A stretch of 21,444 nt of DNA, taken from contig NZXU01000103.1 in assembly GCA_002698425.1 (NCBI GenBank), positions 1-21,444 on the forward strand. The letters run 5' to 3'. This document shows, in pieces, positions 1 through 21,415 of this stretch. The DNA is from Ahrensia sp. (GTDB lineage: Bacteria; Pseudomonadota; Alphaproteobacteria; Rhizobiales; Rhizobiaceae). A program made the position numbers and the translations under genes. The notes beneath the pieces were generated by a model. It was given only the letters and a program-made list of their open reading frames with translations, searched no databases and was not told where the DNA came from. How positions within the stretch are numbered: the first letter of the stretch is position 1; each line of letters begins with the position of its first letter.

Positions 1-1217
<1,217 letters not shown>

Positions 1218-3626: not shown

Positions 3627-3636
3627 TCTTGTTCCT

Positions 3637-6431: not shown

Positions 6432-6860
6432 ATGAATGCCATCGCAACGAAATTCCAGGTGGGTGCTGCGGCGCTCGCTCTCGGTGCTTCCGCGGCGTTC
6501 GCGCCCGTCGCAGCCAACGCCGCTCCTGCGGTGGGAGCTCCCACCGCCCCGGTGCATCAAGTCGCCGGTGACCTAGCAGCAGCTCCGGGCGATTTCATCT
6601 GGTTCTTTCAGGTCACCTCAATTCAGCTTTCCGCGACCTTCACGAGGAGCGCTACTTTCTGGACCGATACCACAATCGCTATTTATGAGGCCAAGCTGGC
6701 AAGAAGGCCCGATTCGATCTTTGCTCCTTTCTACGAAAATCGTATTGCCCAACTGCAGCAGCAGCGGGCCGCATTTGGCCAGCTTAGCCTGAGTGCATGC
6801 CGCGACGGGGAGGGAATTTCGGCAGGCCCATATGGGACTGTTACGCGGGGCGCCTGCTAA
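6432..6860 (+). CDS. Small Sec-secreted protein of unknown function
   Basis: A 142-residue precursor. The ATG at 6432 is chosen over an in-frame GTG at 6417 because a GGGGGGA ribosome site sits at about 6419-6425, and the signal peptide then starts normally: MNAIATKFQVGAAALALGAS, with a likely signal-peptidase cut after PVAANA (about residue 30). The mature part has FIWFFQVTSIQLSATFTRSA and SATFWTDTTIAIYEAKLARR in its middle, then a Gln-rich helix (AQLQQQRAAF). It ends in SACRDGEGISAGPYGTVTRG followed by AC, with two Cys (near residues 127 and 142) that could form a disulfide outside the cell. It resembles small secreted mycobacterial proteins with the same arrangement that have no assigned function. 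It has its own terminator-like hairpin, so it is probably a single-gene unit rather than part of the polysaccharide operon. Confidence 0.85.
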   Translation: MNAIATKFQVGAAALALGASAAFAPVAANAAPAVGAPTAPVHQVAGDLAAAPGDFIWFFQVTSIQLSATFTRSATFWTDTTIAIYEAKLARRPDSIFAPFYENRIAQLQQQRAAFGQLSLSACRDGEGISAGPYGTVTRGAC

Positions 6861-6961: not shown

Positions 6962-8800
6962 GTGCGATTATTTCCGCGACGCCAGTCAGAAGAGAACGCT
7001 CAGGGTGGAGATGATGATGAAGGCCGTGGCCGGCTGCCCGAGGCCCTTCGAAGTCGACGAGTCATCTTAGGAGCAGCGCTACTGCTATTCGTCGTCCTCG
7101 CGTTGGGCTGCTGGGTAGCGATCGGAGCTTTCCAGGCGAAATCGAATCTGGAGCAAGCGCGTAGCAGTGCTCAAAGCGCCAAAGATGCGCTGCTAGCGGG
7201 AGATACGCAGGCTGCGTCTGTGGATGCGGACGACGCGCTTGCGCGGGCGCGAGCGGCCCAGGACGCCACCCACACCGTCGCGTGGAAAATCGCAGCTGCT
7301 GTGCCGTGGCTGGGCAGCCCATTTAAGACTGGCCAGCAGGTTACCGACGTTGTTCTGGGTCTCGCAGCTGACGTACTGCGACCTGCCGCCGATGTCGGCA
7401 TCGAGATCTCACCCGAGCGGCTCTACCGAGATGGCCGGGTGGATGTCGACCTACTTCGAGACCAAGAACCTGAGCTGACTGAGTTGTCCACCAACGCCGC
7501 GCGCCTAAACGGAGATGCCGCAGCGATCACTGATCCACGATATGTGGCTCTTCTCAGAGACGCGCGCGCTGAACTTCAGAGTCAGATATCCAGCATCACG
7601 TCGGTGATCGAAAACGCGGCCTTGGCCGCGCGTCTGGTGCCGTCGATGATGGGTGCAGATGGACCAAGAAGCTACTTCATGGGCTTTCAAACTAATGCCG
7701 AAGCGCGCGGAACCGGCGGGCTACTCGGTGGGTACGGCATCCTCCGATTTGACAAAGGCGTGCCGACCGTGGACGCCGTTGCTCCAAATACCGACCTTAC
7801 TGACGCCGTCGCGCCAATCGAACTGGGGCTTGAATACGACCAGCAGTATGGGTATGCACAACCGTTCACTGACTTTCGCAATAGCAACTTGAGCCCGCAC
7901 TTCCCTAACGCGGCTCAGATATGGAAAGCTATGTGGGCAGAGCAAACAGGCGCGGAGGTGGACGGTGTAATCGCTATCGATCCCGTCGCGTTGAGTTACA
8001 TACTCGGGGCCGTCGGACCGGTAACGATGCCGGACGGCGAGATTGTTTCCCGGGATAACGTCGTTGAGCTGACCGAATCAACCGCCTATCTTCGGTTTCC
8101 GACTGACCAGGTGGCCCGGAAACAGTATTTGCAGGACATCGCCAACGCCGTAGTGACAAAGATGACAGGTTCGGTCCGCTCACCGCGGCAATTGCTTGAT
8201 GCACTCGGCAGGGCTGTCAGCGAACGGCGAATCGCTGTCTGGAGTGCTTCGCCGTCCGAGCAAAGACTTCTTGAACAGACTCAGCTGGCCCATACGCTCC
8301 CGGAAGACGCGGCACCATACGCCGCGGTAGTCATCAACAACCTTGGCGGCAACAAGCTCGATTACTACCTAACGACGGAGGTCGAGTACGCTGCTGATGA
8401 ATGCGACGGCGGGACAAGGGCTTCCACCGTCAATGTGAAATTGACCAATACAGTGCCCAATGAGCCGCTGCCAGACTATGTAGCGGCTGCCGCCGGACTT
8501 TCGCCTGAGCTACTCATTCAGGTTCCACCGGGAACGAACATCACTTCGGTGCGCCTTTTCGCTACCCCAGGAGCTGAGTTAGCGAGCGCAATCCTCAATG
8601 GTGAGCGCGTACCGGCGATCCTAAATTCAGAGCGTGGACACCCCGTATTCGAGGTCCAAGTAATTATTCCTCCGGGACAATCGGCCGATGTTAGCTTTCA
8701 GTTGTCAGAGCCGACCGTGCCTGGGGCAGCGCGGGTGCCGAGCCAGCCCCTAGTCAATACCGTTGTTCCAACTGTGATGGTTCCTGAGTGCGCGGGGTAG
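6962..8800 (+). CDS. DUF4012 membrane-anchored protein
   Basis: A 612-residue protein of the DUF4012 family, found in actinobacterial and other Gram-positive surface-polysaccharide loci, with no proven reaction. The start is a GTG at 6962. Residues 1-34 are charged and cytoplasmic, one membrane helix follows (about 35-57, VILGAALLLFVVLALGCWVA), then an Ala-rich helical stretch (58-105) and a large extracytoplasmic domain. The family signature is at about 236-262 (RSYFMGFQTNAEARGTGG, then LLGGYGILRF). It precedes the Wzz/BY-kinase gene in the same direction with a 166-base gap, and is the first gene of the locus after the hairpin. A role outside the membrane in chain assembly, attachment or export is inference from place only. 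No truncation is seen. Confidence 0.87.
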   Translation: MRLFPRRQSEENAQGGDDDEGRGRLPEALRSRRVILGAALLLFVVLALGCWVAIGAFQAKSNLEQARSSAQSAKDALLAGDTQAASVDADDALARARAAQDATHTVAWKIAAAVPWLGSPFKTGQQVTDVVLGLAADVLRPAADVGIEISPERLYRDGRVDVDLLRDQEPELTELSTNAARLNGDAAAITDPRYVALLRDARAELQSQISSITSVIENAALAARLVPSMMGADGPRSYFMGFQTNAEARGTGGLLGGYGILRFDKGVPTVDAVAPNTDLTDAVAPIELGLEYDQQYGYAQPFTDFRNSNLSPHFPNAAQIWKAMWAEQTGAEVDGVIAIDPVALSYILGAVGPVTMPDGEIVSRDNVVELTESTAYLRFPTDQVARKQYLQDIANAVVTKMTGSVRSPRQLLDALGRAVSERRIAVWSASPSEQRLLEQTQLAHTLPEDAAPYAAVVINNLGGNKLDYYLTTEVEYAADECDGGTRASTVNVKLTNTVPNEPLPDYVAAAAGLSPELLIQVPPGTNITSVRLFATPGAELASAILNGERVPAILNSERGHPVFEVQVIIPPGQSADVSFQLSEPTVPGAARVPSQPLVNTVVPTVMVPECAG

Positions 8801-8966
8801 CCCAAATGGGCGAGACGCACAAGTGCAGCGGTGACGGCCCGTCGTACCAAATGCTGTGCTTGAACTTGAGACATTGCGACCGTTTCCGAGAGAATTTCGC
8901 GCCGCCTACAGCGATGGCACGTAATGAATGGTGCGGGCGGCTTGGTCCAGCAGCTAAGGGGCGGCA

Positions 8967-10448
8967 TTGAATCTCCAGGATTTCGCGAAGGTGGTCCGTT
9001 CTCGGTGGGTCACCGTGAGCATAATGACACTTGCTGGGGTGCTTGCTTCCGTCGTAGTTTCATTGCTGACAACTCCGCTCTATCAGGCCACCGCGCGTCT
9101 ATTCGTATCCACTAGCGCGAGCGCTTCGGTTGCAGAACTGTATCAAGGAAACCGCCTTTCTCAAGAGCGTGTAGGTTCCTATATCGAACTGCTAATGGGG
9201 CAGACTCTCGCTCAGCGTACTATCGACAAACTTGGCCTGGATATGAGCGCCGGCGCGCTTCAGGAGAATGTTGACGCGAGTGCGAAACCCGGAACGGTGC
9301 TAATCGATTTAGCTGTCCTCGACAGTTCTCCAGTTCGAGCGCGCGACATAGCGAACACTCTGTCAGACGAGTTTGTTGCCAGGGTACGTGAACTCGAAAC
9401 ACCTGAGGGCGGGGCCAGACCGGACGCACAAGTAGTCGTAGAGCAGCGGGCGTCAATTCCTAGCGATCCCGTTGTGCCCAAGACCGCCCGTAACATTCTG
9501 GCCGGGCTAGCACTTGGTTTAGCGCTCGGAATTGGTCTGGCAGTCGGACGGGATCTTCTCGACAATACGATAAAGGATCGCGAAACTTTAGAAAAGATCA
9601 CAAACACTGGAATTGTCGGGAGCATCCCGTTGGATAAGGATCGAAGGAAGCAGCCTGCGATATCCTTTGATCGCGACAACTCGCCGGTGGCGGAGGCGTT
9701 TCGGAAACTGCGGACCAACCTCCAATTCCTAGCAGTCGATAATCCGCCACGTGTTATTGTTCTTACCAGTTCAATGCCTCACGAGGGAAAGTCGACAACT
9801 GCGATCAACCTCGCTCTGGCGTTGGCAGAGGCTGAGCACAATGTCGTGTTGGTCGATGGTGATATGCGGCGACCCACATTGCACAAGTATCTCGATTTAG
9901 TCGGGCCGGTCGGATTTAGTACCGTTCTTAGTGGTGGCGCATCGCTCGACGAAGCCCTGCAGAAAACCCGCTTTCCAGGGCTAACGGTGCTTACTTCTGG
10001 AGCTATTCCGCCAAATCCGAGTGAGTTACTCGGCTCGCTGTCAGCGAAAAAGCTGCTAAGCGAGTTGCGAGAACAGTTTACTTACGTGATTATAGATTCA
10101 ACGCCGCTACTTGCGGTGACAGATGCAGCTATCTTGGCGGCAAGCGCCGACGGTGCTCTCATAATGTCGCGGTATGGGCAGACTAGGCATGAACAACTTG
10201 CGCATGGGATAGCCAATCTCGAGAGTGTCGGCGCGTCCTTGTTGGGTGCAGTATTCACGATGATGCCTGCGAGGGGGAATGCCTCCTACAGCTACAGGTA
10301 CTACGGCACCGAGAATCAACAAGGATCCACCCGCCGCCCATCTACTGAATCAATGGCGGTGAATTCTCCGCCGACGAATGTCGAACCTCCGCAGCAACCC
10401 TCCGACGCCACACAAGTTACGGGTCGTCGACGGCGGGCGGTGGAATAG
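8967..10448 (+). CDS. Wzz-type chain-length regulator fused to a BY-kinase (CpsD/Wzc-like)
   Basis: Polysaccharide co-polymerase with a cytoplasmic tyrosine autokinase, 493 residues. It starts at TTG 8967, with AAGGGG at 8955-8960. The Wzz domain is flanked by membrane helices at about 15-34 and 177-194, with a Pro-containing stretch (IPSDPVVPKTARN) just before the second. The kinase part has the E243-x2-R246-x2-R249 interface motif (EAFRKLR), Walker A SSMPHEGKST (268-277, Lys275), Walker A' VLVDGDM (294-300) and Walker B VIIDSTP (374-380, Asp377). The tyrosine cluster is Tyr441, 443, 445 and 446 (YSYRYY), followed by a Pro-rich tail ending in RRRR. In this family, cycles of phosphorylation of that cluster control polymerisation by Wzy. 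The probable phosphatase partner is encoded at 20792-21415. Unlike Firmicute systems, the two halves are on one chain. Confidence 0.94.
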   Translation: MNLQDFAKVVRSRWVTVSIMTLAGVLASVVVSLLTTPLYQATARLFVSTSASASVAELYQGNRLSQERVGSYIELLMGQTLAQRTIDKLGLDMSAGALQENVDASAKPGTVLIDLAVLDSSPVRARDIANTLSDEFVARVRELETPEGGARPDAQVVVEQRASIPSDPVVPKTARNILAGLALGLALGIGLAVGRDLLDNTIKDRETLEKITNTGIVGSIPLDKDRRKQPAISFDRDNSPVAEAFRKLRTNLQFLAVDNPPRVIVLTSSMPHEGKSTTAINLALALAEAEHNVVLVDGDMRRPTLHKYLDLVGPVGFSTVLSGGASLDEALQKTRFPGLTVLTSGAIPPNPSELLGSLSAKKLLSELREQFTYVIIDSTPLLAVTDAAILAASADGALIMSRYGQTRHEQLAHGIANLESVGASLLGAVFTMMPARGNASYSYRYYGTENQQGSTRRPSTESMAVNSPPTNVEPPQQPSDATQVTGRRRRAVE

Positions 10449-10748
10449 GTTGCGTCATTTCTCTGCAGGACAGCTACATTCAGACGTCCGCTTAGTACGT
10501 CGACATCGACGTTGGCGGTCCGCTGATCGAGGCGGGTTGATTGTAGCGGGTCCAATTGCACATTCTAAGAGCCGCATTCACAGAATGTCGACGTCGACAT
10601 CGAGACGCCACCGCGGTTCGTGCACTCAAACACGAAAACGCCACAGGGGCATGCGCGAGATTCGCGCACTTGACCCGGATTGTGCCGCAAGCGTTTGTGA
10701 TCGAACACGCCAACGGCCACAGATCGATCCACCTATGGGGACCCGGAT
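10449..10748 (+). promoter_or_regulatory. 300-base gap with two related 16-base dyads, possible operator region
   Basis: There is no convincing gene. Two dyads share ACGTCGACATCGA. The first, 10497-10512, is ACGTCGA-CA-TCGACGT with a 2-base centre. The second, 10585-10600, is the perfect palindrome ATGTCGACGTCGACAT; the shared 13-mer recurs at 10591-10603, 94 bases downstream of its first copy. Paired dyads in the gap before the glycosyltransferase gene would suit a dimeric repressor or activator that sets expression of the downstream genes. A frame of 124 codons crosses the gap but overlaps the end of the kinase gene and has no motif. Confidence 0.4.
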
Positions 10749-11900
10749 ATGACAATCGCCAATGGCTTCGAAGGTCCACGCGAATACACACGTGCGAGGG
10801 CGGTCATTCAAGTTGGCCCGGGTCCTGATAGTCCGGGAGGCATGGCTTCAGTTATTGAAGAACTTCTCCGCTTAGAACTTGTCAACTACAAATTGACTGC
10901 GGCACCGACGTGGGGGCGTCATACTGGAGTAGCCTCTCTCTTGACCGCCGGGCATACCGCGATTCGTTTGGTGTTAGGCCGAAGACACTGGGATATTGCA
11001 CACGTTCACGTGAGTGAATACGGGAGTTTTTTCCGAGAAGGTGCGATTTTGCTACTTTGCAAGCTGATTCGCAAGCCAGTGGTTATAACACTTCATGGGG
11101 CGCAATTGTTTGAGCACGCAAAACGCTTCCCGCGGCTTACAAAAATCATATTTCGCAGTGCCGATCACATATTTTGTCTGGGTAAGAAGCAACAAGCATT
11201 AGTAAACAGGATTTCGCCGGCAGTTTCGACCAGCATTATCATGAACCCTATCTCGGATAAGTACTTAATTGGGGAGGGTGAGTTACACTCCGGAGCCTTG
11301 AACACACCTACGTATTGTTTCGCGGGCGAGGTTGGATACAGGAAGGGGTTCGACCGTTTAATTGCGGCGTGGGAACACGTTATCCAAGCCCGTCCAGACG
11401 CGTCGCTGCTTGTGGCAGGCCCTCTAGCTGATGGCTTTCAAGTGGCGGAACTATCCGGTGTAAATTACTTGGGTATACTCAGCCGTGCCGACGTTCAATT
11501 GATGTATCGTCGATGCCTTATTTCGGTTCTTCCGAGTCGAGCGGAGGTACTGCCAATGACGGTACTTGAGTCCTTGGCATCTGGCACACCTGCTCTACTG
11601 ACCAAGGTTGGTGAATGGGAGAATTTCAAAGACTGCCCCTCCGTGCAGCTGCTAAACGCCGCGGAAGTAACAGAGTGCGACTTGATACGTGATCTGGCTC
11701 AGTCATTGCTTCGCGCAGCCACGCCTGGTGACGATGACGTTGGTGGAGGCTCAGTAGCGACTCGATGGGTTCAAGAGCACGCAGGCGCCGCGGTCGTTGC
11801 GAGCGATTTAAAAGCTGTTTATGACCAGCTGCCGAAAACGGAGCGAAAAACCCGCTATCTAAACCGCTGTGGTTTGTTGCGCCGGCAAGGTTCGGCCTGA
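10749..11900 (+). CDS. GT4-family glycosyltransferase
   Basis: Retaining glycosyltransferase of the GT4 class with GT-B fold, 383 residues; it would transfer a sugar from a nucleotide donor to the lipid-linked repeat unit at the cytoplasmic membrane face. The ATG at 10749 follows a GGGGA at about 10737-10741. The N-terminal glycine-rich loop is GPGPDSPGGMASVIEEL (23-39). The acceptor half has VITLHGAQLF (112-121). The donor half opens with FAGEVGYRKGFDRLIAAW (191-208) and carries the GT4 E-x7-E motif E266-VLPMTVL-E274 with ESLASGTP behind it. Donor and acceptor sugars cannot be read from the sequence. It is the only GT4 enzyme in the window. It is followed by an 85-base gap to the first pyruvyl transferase. 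Confidence 0.9.
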   Translation: MTIANGFEGPREYTRARAVIQVGPGPDSPGGMASVIEELLRLELVNYKLTAAPTWGRHTGVASLLTAGHTAIRLVLGRRHWDIAHVHVSEYGSFFREGAILLLCKLIRKPVVITLHGAQLFEHAKRFPRLTKIIFRSADHIFCLGKKQQALVNRISPAVSTSIIMNPISDKYLIGEGELHSGALNTPTYCFAGEVGYRKGFDRLIAAWEHVIQARPDASLLVAGPLADGFQVAELSGVNYLGILSRADVQLMYRRCLISVLPSRAEVLPMTVLESLASGTPALLTKVGEWENFKDCPSVQLLNAAEVTECDLIRDLAQSLLRAATPGDDDVGGGSVATRWVQEHAGAAVVASDLKAVYDQLPKTERKTRYLNRCGLLRRQGSA

Positions 11901-11985
11901 CCTTCCGGACAAGATTGAGGATTCACATCTTTGGCGCGACGGAGCGCCTCTACCTATGCCTCTGATAGCCAAGGAGAACTATCCG

Positions 11986-13089
11986 ATGACTTCAGTCGGA
12001 ATTCTGACTAGACACTGCTATCCGAATTATGGGTCGCTCTTGCAGGCTTTTGCACTGGAATCTGCTTTCTCGAGCTTGGGCGCCAAGACCAAGGTCATTG
12101 ACTATGTGCCGCCCTCCGACACGCCGTACCAGCTCACCACATCGAGTTTACGTGAATCGCGTATGCGGGGATCCCCAGTCAAGAAAATGCTCTACTATGC
12201 GATCCAAGGTCCGAACCTCTTTCGAATGGCAAGCCGATTCCGCAAGTACCAGATAGCTAGTCTCAACCTATCTGAGACTGTCAGCGACCGGGACGGTATA
12301 TCGGCAGTTGCGGGACGATTCGATGCGGTTGTGACGGGTAGCGATCAAATATGGAATAAAATACACGACGCTATAGACCCGAATTACTATCTTGCTGGCG
12401 TTGAGGGCGCTGTCAAAAAATATAGCTATGCAGCAAGTTTCGGAAGCGTCGGGCCATCTGAGGAGGATGTCGATCGTGTTCTTAAGTGGCTGAAAAGCTT
12501 TCAGTCGATTTCCGTCAGAGAACCATCAGCACTCACCGAACTTACCGCTCTTGGAGAGCGCCGAACGCGTCGCGACGTGGACCCAGTTCTTCTGCACAAC
12601 AGACACTTCTGGATGAGTTACGCCGCGGACGAGTTCCCCGCACACGGGCCGTATATTCTCGTGTACCAATTGCACAATACCCCAAGATTTGATGAGCGCT
12701 TACGGCAACTGCGTGTACGGCACAACCTTCCGGTCAGGCGAGTGACCGCAGATGGAAAGCAGCGCCTACGCTATAACGCTACCGATTACTTAGTGTCACC
12801 AAAACAGTTTGTTAGACTCTTCCGGGACGCGTCGGTCGTCTTGACAGATTCCTTCCATGGGACGGCATTTAGTCTGGCATTCGGCCGCCCAGTCTATTCG
12901 TTGCTTCCTGCTAAACATGCAACACGGTGTAAAGATCTGCTGTGTGATGTGGGGTTACCACACTTGGCTGTGAGTGCAAATGAGGATTTGCCTAGGGATC
13001 CAGCATATGATGCTGAAGAAGCGTATGTGAGCCTTGCCAACCAGGCTGAGGTGTCTTGGAGGTACCTCCGTACGATTGTCGAGCAGTAG
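11986..13089 (+). CDS. Polysaccharide pyruvyl transferase family protein, copy 1
   Basis: Member of the PS_pyruv_trans family (CsaB/GumL/ExoV type), which transfers pyruvate from phosphoenolpyruvate to a sugar as a ketal. 367 residues from ATG 11986, chosen because AAGGAG lies at 11971-11976, nine bases ahead, and because family homology begins exactly there (VGILTRHCYPNYGSLLQAF). The frame is open further upstream to 11869 but that would overlap the glycosyltransferase. Motifs are NYGSLLQAF (14-22), VTGSDQIWN (116-124), SYAASFG (147-153), SVREPSA (176-182), VDPVLL (198-203) and LTDSFHGTAFSLAF (286-299). It is two bases before the polymerase gene. A family member acting on a different residue from copy 2 is likely. 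Some members are annotated only as general polysaccharide enzymes, so the exact reaction is inferred. Confidence 0.88.
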   Translation: MTSVGILTRHCYPNYGSLLQAFALESAFSSLGAKTKVIDYVPPSDTPYQLTTSSLRESRMRGSPVKKMLYYAIQGPNLFRMASRFRKYQIASLNLSETVSDRDGISAVAGRFDAVVTGSDQIWNKIHDAIDPNYYLAGVEGAVKKYSYAASFGSVGPSEEDVDRVLKWLKSFQSISVREPSALTELTALGERRTRRDVDPVLLHNRHFWMSYAADEFPAHGPYILVYQLHNTPRFDERLRQLRVRHNLPVRRVTADGKQRLRYNATDYLVSPKQFVRLFRDASVVLTDSFHGTAFSLAFGRPVYSLLPAKHATRCKDLLCDVGLPHLAVSANEDLPRDPAYDAEEAYVSLANQAEVSWRYLRTIVEQ

Positions 13090-13091
13090 GC

Positions 13092-14363
13092 ATGAGTTTT
13101 TCTGAGTCCCTCAAATCGGCCGACGATACACGGCAGCTTTCCGTCGCCGACGTGTGCCAACTGGGACTGTTCTGCGCATCTAGTTTTTCGTATGCCTTTT
13201 ATATGAGTGAGCTTATTGACTCGAGGTTCTACTATATTTCGTTAGGTTCGCTAGTTCTGTTTTGCTTGCTGCGGATTTGTTTTATTTTTGCAAACCGAGG
13301 ACGAAGTGACGACGCGCTGTATTTTAGTCGGTCCGCTGTGGCGTTTATTTGCGCCGCGATTACATTTATAGCGATTTCGGTCGTCATCGAATTTATCGCG
13401 ACAAGTACCTATACTTCCACCGCGATGCGGGAAGCTATGTACATGATCGTGCCGATCGTGATCGCATTCACGGTGGTTAATACAGTTTCGATTAAACTTG
13501 CCGACATTTACGTGCTGATCTTGTTGCTGCGCTATGTGACCTACTTCGCGATAGAGTTTTCTACTGATTTCGATATCTCCACTCTCACCGCTATAAGTTG
13601 GGCCGATTCATCGTCGTCCGTGTTCGAGTCCTCATTCTCACACGACCTATTGGTACTCGAGTTATATTTCCTATTCAGGCAACAATACTTGCGCGCAGGA
13701 GTAGCAATGGTGTTTGCCGTCTTGACGTTCAAACGTGCATCGTTCCTGCTCGCCCCTACTCAATTTATTGCAGCAAAGCGTCTGCGGCTGCGTAATGTAC
13801 CGGCGCAAACATCACTGTTTGCGCTCTTCGCCGTAGCATGCCTAAGCCCCTTCATGATGATTACGATCTACTCTAGGCCTTTTGTCGATTTTGCAGCGCG
13901 AACTTTCGGAGTTGATATTGATGAGTTCACCACAGGCCGACGTTCGATCTATGAGCTGGCGATTCAGGTATCGGACGTCAACGGTTTCGGATCACTGAAT
14001 CCGGAGCTCGCGAGCTTGGCGGGAAGTACACTCGGAACAACTTGGAACGGCGCTCTACACAATGACACAATACGACTCTATATTGAAGTCGGACTGCTCG
14101 GCGTTATCGTTTACTGTGCGGCACTTGTGTATCTAGCTCGCGCAAGTCGAATGTCATTTATTGCGATAAGCTACACGATCTTTGTATTGGTAACGTCCCG
14201 ATTGATTACACATATGAGTTTTTGGATTGTGCTGCTGCTAGTGCTCGCGCTCGTTGAGCGGCTAGCTTCTACTGGGGCCAACGACAATTCTGCTGCATTG
14301 ACTAAACCGCAACTTTCTGGCGCGGCGAAGAGAGCGCGCGACAAAGAAAGTAGGTCGAAATGA
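13092..14363 (+). CDS. Wzy-like O-antigen/EPS polymerase, integral membrane
   Basis: A 423-residue protein with about ten or more hydrophobic segments, AT-rich codons and low overall similarity to anything I can name, as expected for Wzy. Features typical of polymerases are LTFKRASFLLAP (211-222) after a central helix and a large periplasmic-side loop around 262-325. The loop contains TTGRRSIYELAI (280-291), GFGSLNPELASLAG, and NGALHNDTIRLYIEVGLLG (319-337), the loop His being the usual conserved residue. It would join repeat units on the outer membrane face. Start at ATG 13092, two bases after the previous stop; an earlier in-frame GTG at 13056 would overlap. Its stop overlaps the next start by ATGA, so translational coupling is expected. 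The C-terminus is cytoplasmic and Lys/Arg-rich. Confidence 0.78.
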   Translation: MSFSESLKSADDTRQLSVADVCQLGLFCASSFSYAFYMSELIDSRFYYISLGSLVLFCLLRICFIFANRGRSDDALYFSRSAVAFICAAITFIAISVVIEFIATSTYTSTAMREAMYMIVPIVIAFTVVNTVSIKLADIYVLILLLRYVTYFAIEFSTDFDISTLTAISWADSSSSVFESSFSHDLLVLELYFLFRQQYLRAGVAMVFAVLTFKRASFLLAPTQFIAAKRLRLRNVPAQTSLFALFAVACLSPFMMITIYSRPFVDFAARTFGVDIDEFTTGRRSIYELAIQVSDVNGFGSLNPELASLAGSTLGTTWNGALHNDTIRLYIEVGLLGVIVYCAALVYLARASRMSFIAISYTIFVLVTSRLITHMSFWIVLLLVLALVERLASTGANDNSAALTKPQLSGAAKRARDKESRSK

Positions 14364-15562
14364 GCAGAGAGACGGCCCCAGGCACTCACAAGCGCCCAAG
14401 AGTCGGTATCCTGACGCTGACACAGTCTGAAAATTATGGAACTGTACTACAAGCTTACGCTACCCGGCGTATCTTTGAATCGTTGAGTAGCTCTCTAGAA
14501 TTTCAACTCGTACCAACTGACGTCCGCCATGTCCGCCGCCGGCGTCTGCAGTCGTTAGTAAACCCGCGAAACCCGAATACTGGCATTACACGTATAAACA
14601 ACTTTCTCAGTATGCGGCGTTTTATACGGAGCGAATTAGCCCCCGCTGGGCGCTACATCGACATTAAAAAGCGTACCGCTGCTATAGAGCATCTGAATCA
14701 AGGATTTGAGGCTTTAATAACGGGATCGGACGAAGTGTGGAATTTGGCTTTTGTGGGCGCGCAGAGTCTTTACTATCTTCCGCATGGAGCCGGTAGGTAC
14801 CGCGCTAGTTTCGCCACTTCAGCTAACCGGCTGGATATTGACGCACTCGACAGCCAAGACCGTAACTTACTTCATAATTCGCTTAAAAGCTACAGCTATT
14901 TATCGGTTCGCGATACTAACACTCGAAATTTCTTGCGCGACCTAGATTTAAGTCTGGACCCCATTGAAATTGTTGACCCGACGTTGGTCTACGACTTCCC
15001 AGAAGCGGAGCCACGTCGCCGGCTTGGGAGCGTCGTAGGCAGTATGGAAAGCCATATTCTACTAATGGTCCGCGACCGACACATAGCGTCGTCGCTAATA
15101 ACCTACTTTGCCGACGTCTGGCCGCAGAGTGAGATCCACACGGTGTTTATAAAGCACGCTCGCACGAAGTACCTACGTATAGACCCATTAGAGTTTGCAG
15201 GAGTTTTTTCTGAATATGACCTAGTAATCACTGACTTCTTTCATGGTACCTGTATGAGTATTAGGAATCGCGCTGCATTCATTTGTTTCGATTCTGAGAC
15301 CATTTATGATAAGTACGAAAGCAAGATCGCTAATCTGGTCCGCAAGCTTGGGCTAACTGGTAACTATGTGAATATCGCAAATATCGGGAGGCAAGAGGGA
15401 TTAAACACGCTGTACGCGCTTGCTGCCAAGATTCTTGATGGCAAGTACTGGTCACCAGATTTCGAGGCAGCCCTAGCTCGCGAGCGTATCACTGCTCGGC
15501 GCGTGGCGACTGAAATAGTCCGGCAACTTGAAGAGGAATTGGCCGTTGTCGACAAGCGGTAG
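14360..15562 (+). CDS. Polysaccharide pyruvyl transferase family protein, copy 2
   Basis: A second PS_pyruv_trans protein, 400 residues, clearly diverged from copy 1. Motifs are ENYGTVLQAYATR (24-36), ITGSDEVWN (120-128), SFATSAN (150-156), LSVRDTNT (181-188), VDPTLVYD (205-212) and ITDFFHGTCMS (290-300). Copy 1 has SDQIWN and DSFHGT at the equivalent places. It begins at ATG 14360 within an ATGA overlap with the polymerase stop, so the two are coupled. Presumed to add pyruvate, or carry out a related phosphoenolpyruvate-dependent transfer, on another sugar of the repeat unit. The 3' end overlaps the ribosome site and start of the flippase gene. Confidence 0.88.
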   Translation: MSRETAPGTHKRPRVGILTLTQSENYGTVLQAYATRRIFESLSSSLEFQLVPTDVRHVRRRRLQSLVNPRNPNTGITRINNFLSMRRFIRSELAPAGRYIDIKKRTAAIEHLNQGFEALITGSDEVWNLAFVGAQSLYYLPHGAGRYRASFATSANRLDIDALDSQDRNLLHNSLKSYSYLSVRDTNTRNFLRDLDLSLDPIEIVDPTLVYDFPEAEPRRRLGSVVGSMESHILLMVRDRHIASSLITYFADVWPQSEIHTVFIKHARTKYLRIDPLEFAGVFSEYDLVITDFFHGTCMSIRNRAAFICFDSETIYDKYESKIANLVRKLGLTGNYVNIANIGRQEGLNTLYALAAKILDGKYWSPDFEAALARERITARRVATEIVRQLEEELAVVDKR

Positions 15563-17063
15563 CGATGTCGGTCGGCGATCCATAATTTACATAGTAGCCA
15601 CCACGCTGCAAAAGTTGTCTTCAGTAGTGTTGCTTCCGATTTACACGCGCCTGTTCACCCCGGAAGAATATGGGTACTTCAACCTAATAGTCACCTTTAC
15701 ACTGTTCGCTGGCGCGTTGGGGTTGTTCGGCCTCGACTACGCCGTCATGAGGTTCTGCCATAAGGGATTGTTCGCCAACGATGCCCTTGGTCGCTGTGAG
15801 TCCGAAATAGAAGTGGCGGGCCGCTACTTCACCGCATCGATTGCTTTAGTGGCAGCGTTTTCAACGATAGTTACGCTCCTTCTCGTTATGGGAAGTCCTA
15901 TTTACGGCCATATCGTATTTCCGGGCCTGCCGCTTTACCCAGTAATTACAATTGCCCTATTAGCGCTGTTATTTCAGCCATTGACAATGCTGTACCTCGC
16001 CCAGCTCCAGGCGCAAACCAGGGCTCGTGCCTTTGGCTACTACTCTGTAGCCTATTTTGTTTCGAACGCGCTGCTCACGATCGGTCTAGTTGGTGGTTTA
16101 CAGCTTGGACTCTTAGGCACCACTGTCGCGATCTTAACGGTGAATATTATTTTTGCGCTCGCTGCGTTGATTGACTCTTGGCGTCGTGGACTCCTCTGGC
16201 ACCGGTTTGATCGTAAATCAGTAATGCAGTTACTTCATTACTCGTTTCCGATGTTGCCGCATTCCCTGTCTCTGCAAGCCACATCACTGGTCACGCGTGT
16301 AACGATCTCGAATTTCATTAGTGTCGCAGCTGCTGGTCTATTTAACGTTGCTATGTACGCCGTCAACTTTATTGATGCAATACAAACTGCGCTGCATCGC
16401 GCTTATCTCCCCTGGTATTTCTCACGGTCCGAGCGGCGCGACTCGTCGTGGCGAGCCGAGGTGCATGAGATGGTTATCGCCTTCATTGCCATTAATGTAG
16501 TTTCATCGATTGGTGTATCTCTTTTCGCGTATGAATGTTTACTATTACTCGCCCCGCCGTCTTTCCTTGAAGCTGCGGCTATTGTTCCAGTTTTGGCTTT
16601 AAGTATGATGATAAAATCTATCTACTATCCGGAGCTGTCTGTGCTGCTTTCCGAGTCGACAGGCACTAGGCGGGTTTTGGCGATTTCGTTATCATCTTCT
16701 GCGGCGTCCGTCGTTCTGGGTGTAATCGGCGCACTGTGGCTGGGCCTCCTAGGCGTCGCTATTTCTCAGGTGATCCAGCGGAGCTTGATGAGCGCCTTGG
16801 CTGTAGCGCTGGCTCGCCGAGCGAATGGTCCGGGAATGCCTTGGTTGAGAATTTTTCGCCTGCAAGGTTTTGGCTTGCTTGCGATCGCGAGCGTTTTGGT
16901 AGGGGATGGGTATAATTGGTGGGGTCTAAATGAAGGCGCAGTTGCAGGGTTGAAGTCGGTGTCCTTAGTGGTTCTCGTTTGTGCTTTGGTCTTGTCTGAG
17001 CCACGACTGCTGGAGGTTGCAAGGAGGGTGGTGGTTCGGCGTGGGGGTCGCGCAGAAACTTAA
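15546..17063 (+). CDS. Wzx-type flippase, MOP superfamily (RfbX-like)
   Basis: Lipid-linked oligosaccharide flippase, 505 residues with about 12-14 membrane helices. The N-terminal family text is IIYIVATTLQKLSSVVLLPI, then YTRLFTPEEYGYFN, as in RfbX/MurJ-related transporters. It would carry the repeat unit across the cytoplasmic membrane for the polymerase. Start choice: TTG 15546, because GAGGAA at 15533-15538 lies seven bases ahead. An in-frame TTG at 15528 is possible but has weaker support. It overlaps the end of copy 2 by 17 bases. The 3' end overlaps the next gene by 23 bases if that starts at 17041. The C-terminus is Arg-rich (ARRVVVRRGGRAET). Confidence 0.9.
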   Translation: MSTSGSDVGRRSIIYIVATTLQKLSSVVLLPIYTRLFTPEEYGYFNLIVTFTLFAGALGLFGLDYAVMRFCHKGLFANDALGRCESEIEVAGRYFTASIALVAAFSTIVTLLLVMGSPIYGHIVFPGLPLYPVITIALLALLFQPLTMLYLAQLQAQTRARAFGYYSVAYFVSNALLTIGLVGGLQLGLLGTTVAILTVNIIFALAALIDSWRRGLLWHRFDRKSVMQLLHYSFPMLPHSLSLQATSLVTRVTISNFISVAAAGLFNVAMYAVNFIDAIQTALHRAYLPWYFSRSERRDSSWRAEVHEMVIAFIAINVVSSIGVSLFAYECLLLLAPPSFLEAAAIVPVLALSMMIKSIYYPELSVLLSESTGTRRVLAISLSSSAASVVLGVIGALWLGLLGVAISQVIQRSLMSALAVALARRANGPGMPWLRIFRLQGFGLLAIASVLVGDGYNWWGLNEGAVAGLKSVSLVVLVCALVLSEPRLLEVARRVVVRRGGRAET

Positions 17064-18072
17064 GAATGTCCATTGGTTGAGGCACCGCGTAAAGCGGGTC
17101 AAGATCTTACGTGAGTACATGGCGGACGCACGGTTTATGAGCCGGCATATGTTGGATGGGGGTCTGTCGGATCAGCATGAGCAGTACCGGATATTACAAT
17201 TAGTACATTCTCTTGAAAAAGGTCTCAGTTATCGTTCGCCACGTGCGTTTGGCGGGTCGAAGGCGCTATCTCTTATGAACGCGATGGCGTCGGCATCGCC
17301 GGGGGCAAAGGGCTCGACAGCTTTTTTCATGGGACTGAGTGTGCTAACGGCTTGGGTGGCGTTTCATAAACAGATGCCTTCGGCTGACGCGTATTCGGTT
17401 AGAAGAGTGGAAGAATTTCTAGCCGGACTAGGGGCGTCTAAGGGCCCAGCTGTGCAGTCCGGCGCGAGAGTCATTGTGGATCGCGACCCGGGAAGGTGGT
17501 TGGCACTGCCTATTGATGAATTCCTTTCAACTAGGCACTCGACGCGACGATTTGCAGGTGTGCCAGTCTTGGACAGCGATCTTCTTGAGTGCGTAAGTTT
17601 GGCGATGTTGTCGCCCTCGGCATGCAATCGTCAAATGGTCCGTCTTCGCGTCATTGATAATGCTGAGGGAAAGCGTTTGCTATATGATACTTTGCACGGT
17701 ACCGGTGGTATCGACTACGAGACCTGCCGGTTGGGAGTGGTAACTTTCGATGCCCAGAGTTTGGATTTTTATGGCGAGCGCAATCAAGGATATCTAAATG
17801 CCGGCTTGTTTGCAATGACATTAATTTACGCCTTTCACTGGAAAGGTATCGGCTCGTGTCTTTTGCAGTTCGGGAACACATTTGCAGAAGAGCGAATGCT
17901 AATTCGCGAGCTGGGGATTCCGGCGTCGGAAAGGATTGGCGTGGGAATCGCTTTCGGTGTCCTTGAATCGTCAGATGTGGTCCCAGCGAGCGCGCGGCGT
18001 GAAGTCGATGAAATTGTATCCGTTTTGGCGGCGGACGCACTCGAGTTGCGGGGTCCTGATCTCGAAACTTGA
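17041..18072 (+). CDS. Nitroreductase-family protein (long, polysaccharide-locus type)
   Basis: A 343-residue protein with a nitroreductase-like (FMN-binding) C-terminal half and an extra N-terminal helical part. The N-terminal part is basic (LRHRVKRVKILREYM) and contains LVHSLEKGLSYRSPRAFGG (about 54-72), a block I associate with nitroreductase-like proteins of polysaccharide loci. The fold motif begins FLSTRHSTRRFAGVPVLDSD (161-180), the typical S/T-R-R-F flavin site, then AMLSPSACNRQMVRLRV (188-204). C-terminal landmarks are GLFAMTLIYAFHWKGIGSC (255-273) and IGVGIAFG (299-306). Start GTG 17041 is chosen: GGAGGG lies at 17023-17028, and earlier in-frame starts (TTG 17017, GTG 16981) would lengthen an N-terminus without homology. 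It overlaps the flippase end, so it belongs to the same operon. A redox step on a sugar or carrier is inference; no substrate can be named. Confidence 0.8.
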   Translation: MGVAQKLKNVHWLRHRVKRVKILREYMADARFMSRHMLDGGLSDQHEQYRILQLVHSLEKGLSYRSPRAFGGSKALSLMNAMASASPGAKGSTAFFMGLSVLTAWVAFHKQMPSADAYSVRRVEEFLAGLGASKGPAVQSGARVIVDRDPGRWLALPIDEFLSTRHSTRRFAGVPVLDSDLLECVSLAMLSPSACNRQMVRLRVIDNAEGKRLLYDTLHGTGGIDYETCRLGVVTFDAQSLDFYGERNQGYLNAGLFAMTLIYAFHWKGIGSCLLQFGNTFAEERMLIRELGIPASERIGVGIAFGVLESSDVVPASARREVDEIVSVLAADALELRGPDLET

Positions 18073-18149
18073 GCGATTTATTGCGATACTTCGTTCCGAT
18101 TCATACCTGTTCTTGGGCGTGGCCTGTTTGATGTTGGGCCCCAAACCGT

Positions 18150-18167
18150 AGTACCATTGATGGTACT
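18150..18167. repeat. 8-bp inverted repeat with 2-base centre
   Basis: AGTACCAT-TG-ATGGTACT. It is about 80 bases after the nitroreductase stop. It could be a regulator site or part of a termination region; no matching second copy was seen. Confidence 0.45.
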
Positions 18168-18228
18168 GAAGAAGTAATTCCTCAATCGGTTTAGATCGCG
18201 AAGTCTTTATTTACTGATGTTACGGCCA

Positions 18229-18285
18229 GGCCTGGTCCTTTCGGTCGTACGGAGCACATTCCTGTACGATCAAAGAGACCAGGCC
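18229..18285 (+). terminator. Imperfect long hairpin, possible operon terminator
   Basis: Outer arms GGCCTGGTC (18229-18237) and GACCAGGCC (18277-18285); inner arms CGTAC (18246-18250) and GTACG (18264-18268) around a 13-base loop. The AAA/TTT bases between the arms can also pair. It lies about 160 bases after the last operon stop. The size and partial pairing also fit a structured RNA element or the relic of a small mobile element end. Confidence 0.5.
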
Positions 18286-18548
18286 GATGAACCTCCACTG
18301 AGGCAAGCTAGCTTCTGCGAGGGATTTAAGCCCGTTGCGACATCACCGACATAGTCATCATCGCCGATGCGACATAATCGCCAGTATGAATCTTCGTGAG
18401 ATCAACGAAGCCGGGCTCGGGGGCCATCCGTCGGCTCGCGGCTCATCGAAGGCCCAAGCCATCTGGCGTCCAATTTCTCCATCGGGAGTACCGCCTTATT
18501 GTTCAACAATCCGCCATCTATACCGGGAGATAGGGCAATATCATTCCT

Positions 18549-19814
18549 ATGAAGTCCACTCGCCCTGATCTGTTGGCAATCACGGCTGCAGTTTTTACGA
18601 TCACGGGTGTTTGCGCAGTTGCAGGGTTTCACGTGGTTGTTACGTCGGCAGGATATGACCAGCGTCAGTTTCACCTTCCGGCCGTGATGCAGATTCGTGA
18701 CACGTTTCCTGCCATCGACTTCATTCACCTCCCTACGGCGACCGGTCCGCTCTATCACGTCGCTGTCGCGGCACTCTCGGGCCCACTTTCGTTGGGGGAG
18801 GCGGGTACACAGATTGTTGGCGGGCTGTTCTCGGCTCTACTTGCGGGGCTGGCTATCTATCACACGCGGTCTGTTCCGTCGGCCTTTGGGCGCATCCTTG
18901 CGGCTGCACCGCTCATCTTTTCAGCTTATTTCTGGCAGTCAGCTTTATGGATGCTCACCGATAATGCCGCTGCATTATTTTCAATGGCCGCACTGATTCT
19001 GCTTACATTTGATCTGAATCCGCGGAAGGAACTGGCGGTTGGATTTCTGATAGCTCTCGCCATTGCGACTAGGCAGACCAGTGTTTGGTTATTATTGCCT
19101 GGCATTATGGCGTGCGGTTATGACTATCATCGCCGAGATACCGAGCTTCGGGGTCTCGCTCTTATCCGCGTTGCTGGTCCGGGAGTTTGTGTATTAACCC
19201 TCCTCGTTGCGATGTGGGCTGGGCTAACGCCGCCGGGCGTTGGCGATTTTAATGCCACCGGATTCAGTCCGGTGGCAACCACATTTACCTTTGCGGTAGC
19301 CGGTGTCTTCTCTGTTCCGATTTTCTTGTGTACGCCTGCTCGCGTACGCACCGTCCGGAAGTTCTGGAGGATTGCTGCGGCAGTCGGGTTTGCAGGGAGT
19401 GTGCCAGCGATGCTTTTCCCTAGTGCGGTTACCCAGGCTCCTGACCATTCCCGGCGTGGTGGAGCGGTTTGGGAGCTGGTAGCAATTGGCGGCGATGTGG
19501 TTGAGCGCTCAGGAGTGTTGATAGCCCTTGGATTTGTTGGTGCGTTCACGGCTACGCTTGTCTGTACGCAACTCGCGCGAAAGCTTACCGTCATTGTTGG
19601 GGCATCGTTGCTAGCACTCGCTGTAGTTGCGTCGGTGGGAGCCCAGCTTTTTCAGAAGTATGTTGAGTTGCCAATAGCTGTTGTTGCAGTTATCACGATC
19701 GTCAGCTTGTGGAAAGATGAAAAGATAGTTCGCCGTTGGCCGCTAATTGCTCTGTTGGCCGCGCAGGCTGCGACGACGATTGCGATCGTTGGGTTGCCGA
19801 TACTGTCCGGTTGA
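18549..19814 (+). CDS. ALG10-like multi-spanning glycosyltransferase
   Basis: A 421-residue membrane protein with about ten hydrophobic segments. The first extracytoplasmic loop carries YDQRQFHLPAVMQIRDTFP (about 36-54), then HLPTATGPLYHV, and further on WMLTDNAAALFSM and AIATRQTSVWLLLPG; near the C-terminus comes QKYVELPIAV. This order (acidic loop after helix 1, G-P-L-Y-H, T-D-N, R-Q-T, late Q-x-Y-V-E) matches the ALG10/DIE2 alpha-glucosyltransferase family (GT59, GT-C fold), which uses polyprenyl-phosphate-linked glucose. I infer a sugar transfer on the outer face of the membrane, possibly onto the polymer or a lipid-linked unit. The ATG at 18549 has only weak ribosome-site support (GGGAGATAGGG at about 18525-18535). 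It sits beyond the operon gap and converges on the WecG-like gene. Confidence 0.7.
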   Translation: MKSTRPDLLAITAAVFTITGVCAVAGFHVVVTSAGYDQRQFHLPAVMQIRDTFPAIDFIHLPTATGPLYHVAVAALSGPLSLGEAGTQIVGGLFSALLAGLAIYHTRSVPSAFGRILAAAPLIFSAYFWQSALWMLTDNAAALFSMAALILLTFDLNPRKELAVGFLIALAIATRQTSVWLLLPGIMACGYDYHRRDTELRGLALIRVAGPGVCVLTLLVAMWAGLTPPGVGDFNATGFSPVATTFTFAVAGVFSVPIFLCTPARVRTVRKFWRIAAAVGFAGSVPAMLFPSAVTQAPDHSRRGGAVWELVAIGGDVVERSGVLIALGFVGAFTATLVCTQLARKLTVIVGASLLALAVVASVGAQLFQKYVELPIAVVAVITIVSLWKDEKIVRRWPLIALLAAQAATTIAIVGLPILSG

Positions 19815-19839
19815 CGGCGCCAGCAAGTTTATAGTGTGC

Positions 19840-19860
19840 GGGCATCCCGACCTGATGCCC
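19840..19860. terminator. Bidirectional hairpin between convergent genes
   Basis: Arms GGGCATC (19840-19846) and GATGCCC (19854-19860) with loop CCGACCT. It lies 25 bases after the ALG10-like stop and 6 bases from the end of the minus-strand WecG-like gene, so it can serve both. No clear T-run on the plus side. Confidence 0.55.
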
Positions 19861-19866
19861 ACCCTT

Positions 19867-20664
19867 TCATTTACGTGGGGGCCGTGGGTTCGCTCGGATG
19901 AAATGTGGTAACGCAAGTAGGTCCTGAGCATACCGCTTAAATAGCCGGCGTGGCTCCTGAAGAGCGCGGTAGGCCCATTCAAGACGGAAAGATTGAACAA
20001 TGCGAGGAGCCCTGCGAGCCACTCCTGAACTAAAATTTATGGACATACCGAGGCAGAGTATTGCGCCGCTTCCAGGCATTTTGGCGATTTCGCAAGCTAT
20101 CGATTCCTGGAGAGGAGCGCCGACGCCGATCACAACGATTCCCCCAGAGCCAGCTCGGGCAACTCTAGAAACTAGTGCGGCGCGTGAGGTGGGGTCGACA
20201 AGTTCTGAACGTGGTGCAGGCTCGCTCGATACGCTCCATCCACGATTGCGACACCGGTGGAACAGTGCTTCGAGTCCTGGGCTTGGTGTCCCGCCGATGA
20301 GCACCAACGGCTTTTTCGTCACCGTTTGTTCGATGACCTTTTGGAATAGTTCGGCGCCAATCACTCTATCGACGCGACGACCTGCGACTCGCGACGCGAG
20401 CCATGCGACTGGCCAACCGTCGGCGAGCGATAACCCCGCTGCGGAGTAAGGCTCCGCAGCGGACGGAGCACCGCGGACGACCCGTAGATGGTGAAGATTT
20501 GGCGTTACCAACACTTCCCAGTCGTCGCGGTGCTTGTATACCGTCCAGGAAACCGCATAGTCGAGTGACACGTCATCAACAGGAACGACTGCCGCGCCCA
20601 GTTCGATCGTCACTCGACGAGGCACCCGCAGATCGTCGACGTTCGGTTCGCTTGGCTTTGACAT
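19867..20664 (-). CDS. WecG/TagA/CpsF family glycosyltransferase
   Basis: A 265-residue GT26-type enzyme. Families of this kind transfer a sugar such as ManNAc(A) or glucose to the first, lipid-linked sugar of a repeat unit. Motifs are VTPNLHHLRVV (53-63), SLADGWPVAWLAS (79-91), the donor-side IGVGAPLQE (179-187), LGMSINFSSGVARRAPRIV (205-223) and FRLEWAYRALQEPRRLFKRY (226-245), the last being the C-terminal signature of the family. It may be cytoplasmic and membrane-associated through that basic C-terminus. Start: ATG 20664 is preferred (GTGGGGTGG upstream), with GTG 20670 an alternative two codons earlier. It is the only polysaccharide gene on the minus strand and converges on the ALG10-like gene. 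It is divergent from the phosphatase gene across a 127-base gap that would hold promoters for both. Confidence 0.9.
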   Translation of the reverse strand: MSKPSEPNVDDLRVPRRVTIELGAAVVPVDDVSLDYAVSWTVYKHRDDWEVLVTPNLHHLRVVRGAPSAAEPYSAAGLSLADGWPVAWLASRVAGRRVDRVIGAELFQKVIEQTVTKKPLVLIGGTPSPGLEALFHRCRNRGWSVSSEPAPRSELVDPTSRAALVSRVARAGSGGIVVIGVGAPLQESIACEIAKMPGSGAILCLGMSINFSSGVARRAPRIVQSFRLEWAYRALQEPRRLFKRYAQDLLALPHFIRANPRPPRK

Positions 20665-20791
20665 TTCCACCCCACATGTTAGTAGCGCTGCCGGCGCCGA
20701 TTCTCTACGAAGTATCTCAAAGGTGCCGGAGTCTCATTCGAAAGCACCAACCCGGCGACTTGTAGATAGATAGTGCCGGTAGCGACTGGAT

Positions 20792-21415
20792 ATGTCGAAG
20801 GCGGATACTGAACGAGATGCCAACCTATCTGCTATCATTTGGGGCCGCCAAACCACGGATAGGAACGAGGGCGTAACGCTGCACTTGCTATTCGTTTGCA
20901 CTGGGAACATCTGTCGGTCCCCTACAGCGGAGAGGCTCGCCGCTTCGTACAGTGCTCGACTCTCGATACCAAACCTCAGTACTTCCAGCGCTGGGACTCG
21001 GGCAGTGATTGCCCACCCTATTCATCGCGAAGCAGCACTCGTTTTGGAAAGGCTGGGCGGTGACGCGTCCAACTTCGCGGCAAGGCAGCTTACACCCAAG
21101 ATCGCTTCGGACGCCGACCTTATTCTTGCGATGACGATGGAGCATCGGGACGCTGTTCTAAGCCTTGCGCCCCGATTGCTGCGCCGAACCTTCACGCTGG
21201 CCGAAGCTGCGTGGCTCGCCTCAAACGTCGATGCGAGGACGGTGGCGGACCTCCCGGTACTCCGGCCCCAATGGGAGTCGAACTACTCATCGGAGATCGT
21301 CGATCCCATCGATCAAAGCGCGGAGGTGTTCGAGATAGTCGGATCGCAAATCGCTCACCTGCTGCCACCCATTCTTGAGCTCTGCGGAAGGTCCCAGGCG
21401 CGGGGGGCAGACTAG
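20792..21415 (+). CDS. Low-molecular-weight protein tyrosine phosphatase (Wzb-like)
   Basis: A 207-residue LMW-PTP. The P-loop is VCTGNICRSPTAE with Cys36 as nucleophile and Arg42 closing the C-x5-R motif; the general-acid loop is the late DPID at 171-174. The likely target is the tyrosine cluster of the BY-kinase encoded at 8967, as in Wzb-Wzc pairs. Homology to the family starts at about residue 29 (TLHLLFVCTGN). The ATG at 20792 has only weak ribosome-site support, while GAGG at 20867-20870 lies eight bases before a CTG (20879-20881) placed exactly where family homology begins. A shorter protein of about 178 residues starting there is possible. It is about 150-200 residues in most relatives, so either fits. 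Confidence 0.92.
   Translation: MSKADTERDANLSAIIWGRQTTDRNEGVTLHLLFVCTGNICRSPTAERLAASYSARLSIPNLSTSSAGTRAVIAHPIHREAALVLERLGGDASNFAARQLTPKIASDADLILAMTMEHRDAVLSLAPRLLRRTFTLAEAAWLASNVDARTVADLPVLRPQWESNYSSEIVDPIDQSAEVFEIVGSQIAHLLPPILELCGRSQARGAD

Follow-up and report, generated by a model that had tools for sequence, protein, structure and literature searches.

Mycobacterial capsules are usually described as alpha-glucan, arabinomannan and mannan, and a coat system of the classical bacterial capsule route would be unexpected among them. Whether such a system is encoded is the question raised by a 21,444-nt stretch of DNA from contig NZXU01000103.1 (the window; all coordinates are those of the whole stretch). 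Judged by its gene families and gene order, the window is likely to hold the greater part of a Wzx/Wzy-dependent locus of capsule type, resembling a mycobacterial serotype (K-type) locus in its behaviour: a conserved head (DUF4012 and a fusion of Wzz with a bacterial tyrosine kinase, BY-kinase) and a conserved tail (a Wzb-type phosphatase and, in many relatives, the priming transferase after it) would enclose an exchangeable biosynthetic cassette. The locus genes from 6962 to 21415 are all present and open where the first-pass annotation had placed them, and all lie on the plus strand except WecG:

6962–8800, plus strand: DUF4012 protein (PF13196, 155 bits)
8967–10448, plus strand: Wzz/BY-kinase fusion with a C-terminal tyrosine cluster (PF02706, PF13614, TIGR01007)
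10749–11900, plus strand: glycosyltransferase of family 4, GT4 (PF00534, 57 bits; 42–45% identical counterparts in three other genomes)
11989–13089, plus strand: polysaccharide pyruvyl transferase family protein 1, PVT1 (PF04230)
13095–14363, plus strand: polytopic Wzy-type polymerase, longest open reading frame (ORF) from 13056 (PF04932 below cut-off)
14360–15562, plus strand: polysaccharide pyruvyl transferase family protein 2, PVT2 (PF04230)
15528–17063, plus strand: Wzx-type flippase (PF01943, Polysacc_synt, 48.7 bits, and PF13440; 12 hydrophobic segments)
17029–18072, plus strand: nitroreductase-family protein, NTR (PF00881, 50.7 bits; counterparts at 56–60% identity in the three other cassettes)
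18549–19814, plus strand: orphan polytopic protein (9 hydrophobic segments; no Pfam match)
19867–20670, minus strand: WecG/TagA/CpsF (GT26-type) glycosyltransferase (PF03808, 105 bits; TIGR00696)
20792–21415, plus strand: low-molecular-weight protein-tyrosine phosphatase (LMW-PTP) of Wzb type, the tail marker of the locus (PF01451, LMWPc, 81 bits; its family in 20 of 21 loci)

The kinase protein matched PF02706 (Wzz) at 36 bits against a cut-off of 25.5 and the tyrosine autokinase model TIGR01007 at 170.4 bits (cut-off 108.05). Its Walker A, A′ and B motifs are intact (PHEGKS, VDGDMRRP and VIIDSTP), and its tail, YSYRYYG, has four tyrosines. The two PS_pyruv_trans (PF04230) proteins scored 92 and 62 bits; for PVT1 the longest ORF begins at 11869, and similarity to relatives starts at the 11989 start. 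Flippase, co-polymerase and glycosyltransferases occur together in the window, and these family matches bear out the first-pass annotation in its central claim, that a mycobacterium has a Wzx/Wzy-type locus including BY-kinase and phosphatase genes, and in the flippase, Wzz/kinase, phosphatase and two PF04230 proteins that it listed. Its polymerase reached 21 bits to Wzy_C (PF04932), under the Pfam cut-off of 31.7; nine hydrophobic segments and relatives that reach the Wzy_C family (for example, 33.7 bits in the L161 relative) support the predicted Wzy identity. Two of its three glycosyltransferases, GT4 and WecG, were recovered, and the third (18549–19814) matched no Pfam family even at E 10, so that calling this protein a GT-C glycosyltransferase would be a guess. 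The family scores, together with a gene order kept in other genomes, make a chance assembly unlikely. A cassette of this content might also build a short surface glycolipid or glycopeptidolipid-like oligosaccharide and no long polymer, and pyruvylated glycolipids are reviewed for M. smegmatis and M. avium-intracellulare in the available part of PMC6801904; Wzy, Wzz/BY-kinase and a Wzb-type phosphatase jointly point to length-controlled polymerisation, however, and we regard the short product as improbable.

How far the capsule-type arrangement extends to other genomes was read in 20 genomes, chosen mostly for a nearby phosphatase, from the 37 kb after the kinase and with ORFs from a simple caller. 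Among the resulting 21 loci (window counted), DUF4012 and the kinase were present in 21 and the phosphatase in 20. Inner ORFs of at least 150 aa numbered 299, and 152 had a partner of at least 40% identity in another locus (mean 1.5 partner loci), as against 172 of 230 flank ORFs (40% identity, mean 4.2 partner loci); G257, having no phosphatase of that cluster, was excluded from this count. None of the window's eight inner ORFs was shared with any of the 20 other loci, and G150 carries between the same ends a UDP-sugar dehydrogenase, two epimerases, three GT4, one GT2 (glycosyltransferase family 2) and two polytopic proteins without Pfam family. Kinase, DUF4012 and phosphatase are conserved and the inner genes are exchanged: on the recurrence that the first-pass annotation had raised, the gene set does not return whole in other mycobacteria, where the DUF4012/BY-kinase head and the phosphatase recur. 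In a wider count, covering 45 kb either side of 41 kinase copies in the 40 best-scoring genomes, a Wzb-type LMW-PTP lay near 35 copies (42 rows picked by hand, excluding lower-scoring rows and each genome's top row, taken as the housekeeping enzyme), a Bac_transf priming enzyme near 30 (three partial rows excluded) and a PF01943 flippase near 29.

The description of the locus as complete-looking has to be withdrawn, as no priming sugar-phosphate transferase lies within the window, which stops 29 bases past the last base of the LMW-PTP gene. In relatives the enzyme follows at this point: a priming transferase of one family starts at most 0.6 kb after the phosphatase end in 13 of the 20 fetched loci and within 1.5 kb in 1 more, and a member of this family scored 419 bits to TIGR03025. 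Downstream of the priming transferase in L071 (1526–3584) stand a prenyltransferase resembling undecaprenyl pyrophosphate synthase (PF01255) and an NF005547 flavoprotein, whose families occur in 7 and 8 of the 20 loci, respectively; the locus may come with a lipid carrier of its own.

The cassette itself was traced through its polymerase. Of 7997 scored candidates 7 matched the window Wzy, among them Wzy itself and one under the name Gordonia hongkongensis; a search of 401 genomes of the family gave 3 matches. All three genomes carry WecG, GT4, PVT1, Wzy, PVT2, Wzx and NTR in that order at 29–60% identity, PVT1 of the third reading as two overlapping pieces. One of these three genomes is probably a Gordonia, and the order of the seven-gene set indicates that the nitroreductase-type protein is part of the unit and that WecG was probably relocated in the window. 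Two of the cassettes (L160 and L161; seven genes at 29–58% identity) have a priming transferase before the set and a kinase after it. They differ from the window in a more distant kinase (37–38%), in showing no DUF4012 match (limits: E 1e-8 and a quarter of the protein) across the 34 kb read, and in having no reported counterpart of the orphan membrane protein. In the third genome DUF4012 (53%) stands ahead of the set and the priming transferase on the other strand, and no kinase match was found in the 20 kb read. The orphan membrane protein has no reported counterpart in any of the three cassettes and seems to be peculiar to the window.

A scan of genome contigs for the kinase, relying on short exact patterns, gave 41 loci, in which the nearest kinases were mycobacterial, mostly from Mycolicibacterium. 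Close-type kinases (67–79% identity) came from Mycolicibacterium or Mycobacterium records and from two contigs of one Actinomycetes bacterium bin; the carriers include M. austroafricanum, M. komossense, M. hodleri, M. hippocampi, M. rhodesiae and M. chlorophenolicum, which we take to be environmental species. Two Rhodococcus loci followed at 58%. No M. tuberculosis record was among the 41 loci, which is weak evidence of absence because the scan needs short exact patterns. A survey of the genus of M. hippocampi (297 genomes, one per species) placed the kinase profile in 118 genomes at E 1e-60 or better and, above a close-type threshold of 640 bits that was our own choice, 91 kinase copies in 87 genomes. 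DUF4012 was found in 93 of the 297 (100 copies), about a third of the sampled species, a patchy occurrence among species. Both genes were present in 86 genomes, with DUF4012 directly upstream of the close-type kinase in 78 of the 91 copies. None of 14 control genomes had DUF4012, and 60 of 198 sampled genomes of the phylum did. DUF4012 belongs to the locus system; neither this membership, nor the priming enzyme outside the window, nor the fold described below had been foreseen by the first-pass annotation. Three regions carry DUF4012 and kinase in pairs (G246:C1:4179885-4207551, 26 kb apart; G299:C1:3721839-3750150, 27 kb; G006:C8:145660-210222, 63 kb), which suggests double loci.

Nine of the 41 scanned loci (L025–L032 and L034) form a second type, with a kinase paralogue at 47–50% identity and 1–3 tyrosines in the last 75 residues; the P-loop pattern read AGEGRT in 4 and gave no read in 5, and the same pattern also missed 2 of 23 close-type kinases. 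In one such locus (L026:4484-16529) Wzy_C, GT2, Wzx, a GH39/GH5-like protein, GT4s and an epimerase surround the kinase. In Rhodococcus koreensis (L022:1-9879) a 3292-aa open frame lies upstream of the kinase.

Half of the capsule-type loci read also share a site. Two features left of DUF4012 are needed here:

1–1136, minus strand: accD, acyl-CoA carboxylase beta subunit, left flank, cut by the window edge (PF01039, 454 bits for 3–1136; in other genomes its relatives bound the insertion site on the left)
6417–6860, plus strand: small protein of 147 aa with one hydrophobic segment (no Pfam family; its family in 12 of the 21 compared loci, window counted), perhaps secreted and possibly a member of the locus head

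The upstream flank is accD, the window's first gene, and the downstream flank of 10 of the 20 fetched loci has one common gene family, whose G150 member is purK (TIGR01161, NF004680) adjoining purE; GtrA and bacterial PH-domain proteins precede purK. For 23 genomes in which DUF4012 is absent (those heading the list, and six with a distant kinase; distances taken by hand from tables), the accD–purK gap was 1.4–5.7 kb in 16 and 21–29 kb in 4 (G030, G031, G038 and G064), and it could not be scored in 3, namely G011 (two contigs), G018 and G025 (no close accD match). It measured 27–42 kb in 5 genomes picked as locus carriers. The M. tuberculosis region runs accD5, birA, Rv3278c, Rv3277, purK, purE and is not known to hold an insert. 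The insertion site is common to half of the loci read, and the serotype (K-type) pattern of conserved ends, exchangeable inside and fixed site is found between species. G064 (L165 and L166) has a different locus at this site, with a more distant kinase (35% identity), a priming transferase and no DUF4012 match.

Alternatively, the locus might be a decaying, horizontally acquired island, functionless in the source strain. G+C is 0.524 from kinase to phosphatase as against 0.657 in the window's first kilobase, and a stretch left of the locus (2038–2321) matches two M. intracellulare plasmid records, in one of them under an IS110 family transposase. The locus genes are open, however, the kinase motifs are intact, and counterparts in other genomes keep the gene order at the divergence given above, making decay very improbable.

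Models and fold searches of DUF4012 outline an N-terminal membrane segment, a helical region, a core of LytR-CpsA-Psr (LCP) fold (about residues 233–440) and a C-terminal beta domain. The full-length model has a mean pLDDT of 74.6 and the core-only model 70.7, the latter poor at core residues 23–29 and 52–86; both rest on close relatives, since the protein search for diverse homologues gave mostly the same mycobacterial ones. Comparing the core model with solved structures gave 26 leading rows that were all LCP (by title or sequence search) but for 4obm, whose title says only putative transcription regulator, with Z from 10.0 (3pe5, 171 residues, root-mean-square deviation 4.7) down to 6.2 and the next row at 3.1. 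Foldseek E values for the core were weak (best 2.1e-3; TM-scores by query length 0.33–0.48 for LCP rows), and Foldseek alone found no match at E 0.001 or better for the full-length model, the best LCP row, 3pe5, ranking seventh.

In sequence, DUF4012 had 0 matches to solved structures at E up to 1, and the LCP profile PF03816 matched none of 4 DUF4012 sequences up to E 10. A shallow profile comparison with mycobacterial LCPs gave a probability of 1.7 (E 0.03), and a deeper one scored 29.8 (E 0.002, probability 13.7, 107 columns), a value reached by 0 of 100 block-shuffled LCP profiles (best 23.4), with the reversed LCP profile at 22.0 and the best of 25 other families at 22.2. These shuffles, read with another parser, replaced 60 earlier column shuffles, one of which gave 134.4 and was taken as a parsing error without proof. 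One of the 25 other families gave 30.4 with the LCP profile itself, which weighs against the link, so the sequence evidence is supportive only. As modelled, the DUF4012 core has the LCP fold.

The residues of the core differ from those of LCP enzymes. The catalytic positions, in Cps2A D234, D246, R267, R362, R374 and Q378 according to the available part of PMC7831098, were invariant in 45 of 45 LCP sequences. The 34 DUF4012 sequences compared (at least 7 mycobacterial; hand-made mapping between families) did not match this Asp/Arg/Gln set; their own constants are E247 (34), R249 (33), D340 (34), D334 (33), Y376 (34) and R386 (29). DUF4012 would thus have an LCP fold, yet it is unproven as an LCP enzyme. 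True LCP genes exist besides it, with three matches in each of 5 genomes and one within 10 kb of purK in G001, G107 and G150. The unmatched catalytic residues fit a different product, a secreted exopolysaccharide or biofilm polymer unattached to the wall, with DUF4012 as a structural or regulatory kinase partner and no ligase. Since two cassettes also have no DUF4012 match beside them, attachment may be by something else or not at all. Set against this, DUF4012 is a steady kinase neighbour whose core models as LCP fold, and a DUF4012-containing locus of Bifidobacterium longum 105-A comes from a strain whose bound capsule was lost in a priming-gene mutant, as described in the accessible text of PMC5412050. 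We consider an unattached polymer possible, though doubtful.

For the capsule-type reading, which we prefer, we infer the biochemical steps, the sugars, the acidity and the attachment from the gene families. A priming enzyme encoded outside the window would put a sugar on polyprenyl phosphate, and WecG and GT4, perhaps with the orphan membrane protein, would lengthen the unit. Both PF04230 proteins and the nitroreductase-type protein would probably modify it, the likely addition being pyruvate ketals that would render it acidic. Wzx would flip the unit and Wzy polymerise it under Wzz/BY-kinase control, while the LMW-PTP would cycle the tyrosine cluster of the kinase. DUF4012, as an outward-facing LCP-fold protein, would take the lipid-linked polymer and help to hold it at the wall.

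Bifidobacterium, whose envelope lacks mycolic acids, offers a close precedent. In the available description of the B. longum 105-A capsular/exopolysaccharide locus (PMC5412050), as in the window's relatives, an actinobacterium carries a priming transferase, DUF4012, wzz and glycosyltransferases, there in this order as a conserved head, with a strain-specific polymerase, pyruvyltransferase and flippase further in. Its priming gene is at the head, unlike in many mycobacterial relatives, where it is at the tail, and the likeness is one of described gene order. Pneumococcus has its Wzz and BY-kinase genes (cps2B-D) at the start of a locus whose inner genes are exchangeable. An LCP-fold protein (Cps2A, in the consulted part of PMC7831098) likewise heads that Wzy-dependent capsule locus. 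The window differs in that DUF4012 is without PF03816 match and catalytic residues, Wzz and kinase are fused, and the phosphatase is of LMW type at the far end. The related actinobacterium Rhodococcus equi has a serotype-specific, acidic, pyruvylated capsule (serotype 4; PMC6801904, as far as available), a likeness in the polymer as described. Literature searches on Rhodococcus and Gordonia polysaccharide clusters yielded no locus for comparison beyond that review. DUF4012 is nowhere called LCP-like in the literature passages naming it: those of PMC6744442 mention the B. longum link and those of PMC7917626 name it only as a hub gene. No mycobacterial Wzx/Wzy or BY-kinase locus was among the literature matches listed, most subscription papers falling outside their scope. 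The architecture is best read, from the passages available, as known in Bifidobacterium (PMC5412050) and described for no mycobacterium among those matches. The acidity of the polysaccharide that the first-pass annotation had suggested would be consistent with the two PF04230 proteins.

Several observations weigh against a serotype-like capsule locus. The orphan protein has no family, and Wzy is under its cut-off. DUF4012 is not directly upstream in 13 of the 91 close-type kinase copies, is unmatched beside two of the three other cassettes and lacks the LCP catalytic set. Within 45 kb of the 41 kinases Wzx was unseen in 12, the priming transferase in 11 and the Wzb-type phosphatase in 6, some of which may be due to contig ends. 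The fetched genomes were selected largely by their phosphatase, and a simple caller supplied their ORFs. The window shows the left flank only, and purK was within the 37 kb read in only 10 of the 20 loci.

A more far-reaching version is tentative: environmental mycobacteria would have a serotype-type capsule with cassettes exchanged across species and other genera, and DUF4012 would be a second and divergent branch of LCP-fold enzymes, handing or ligating the Wzy polymer to the wall via a rebuilt active site (invariant Glu247, Arg249). If so, the mycobacterial surface would be antigenically switchable via cassette exchange. More generally, a tyrosine-kinase-controlled Wzx/Wzy locus with an exchangeable inside would give mycobacteria a variable surface antigen, relevant to phage adsorption, biofilms and environmental persistence, and the LCP fold suggests a testable role for DUF4012, a family of unknown function.

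Further features lie between accD and the locus. Positions 1252–2321 are a possible transposase remnant, whose ORF 1252–2097 matched no Pfam family. A plasmid origin of the window was rejected: in the near-identity search, hits to plasmid records were confined to the accD flank and 2038–2321. At 2409–4914 stands a DUF1501 and DUF1800 gene pair; L005, L012 and L018 have the pair upstream of the kinase too, and L021 has it on the opposite side.

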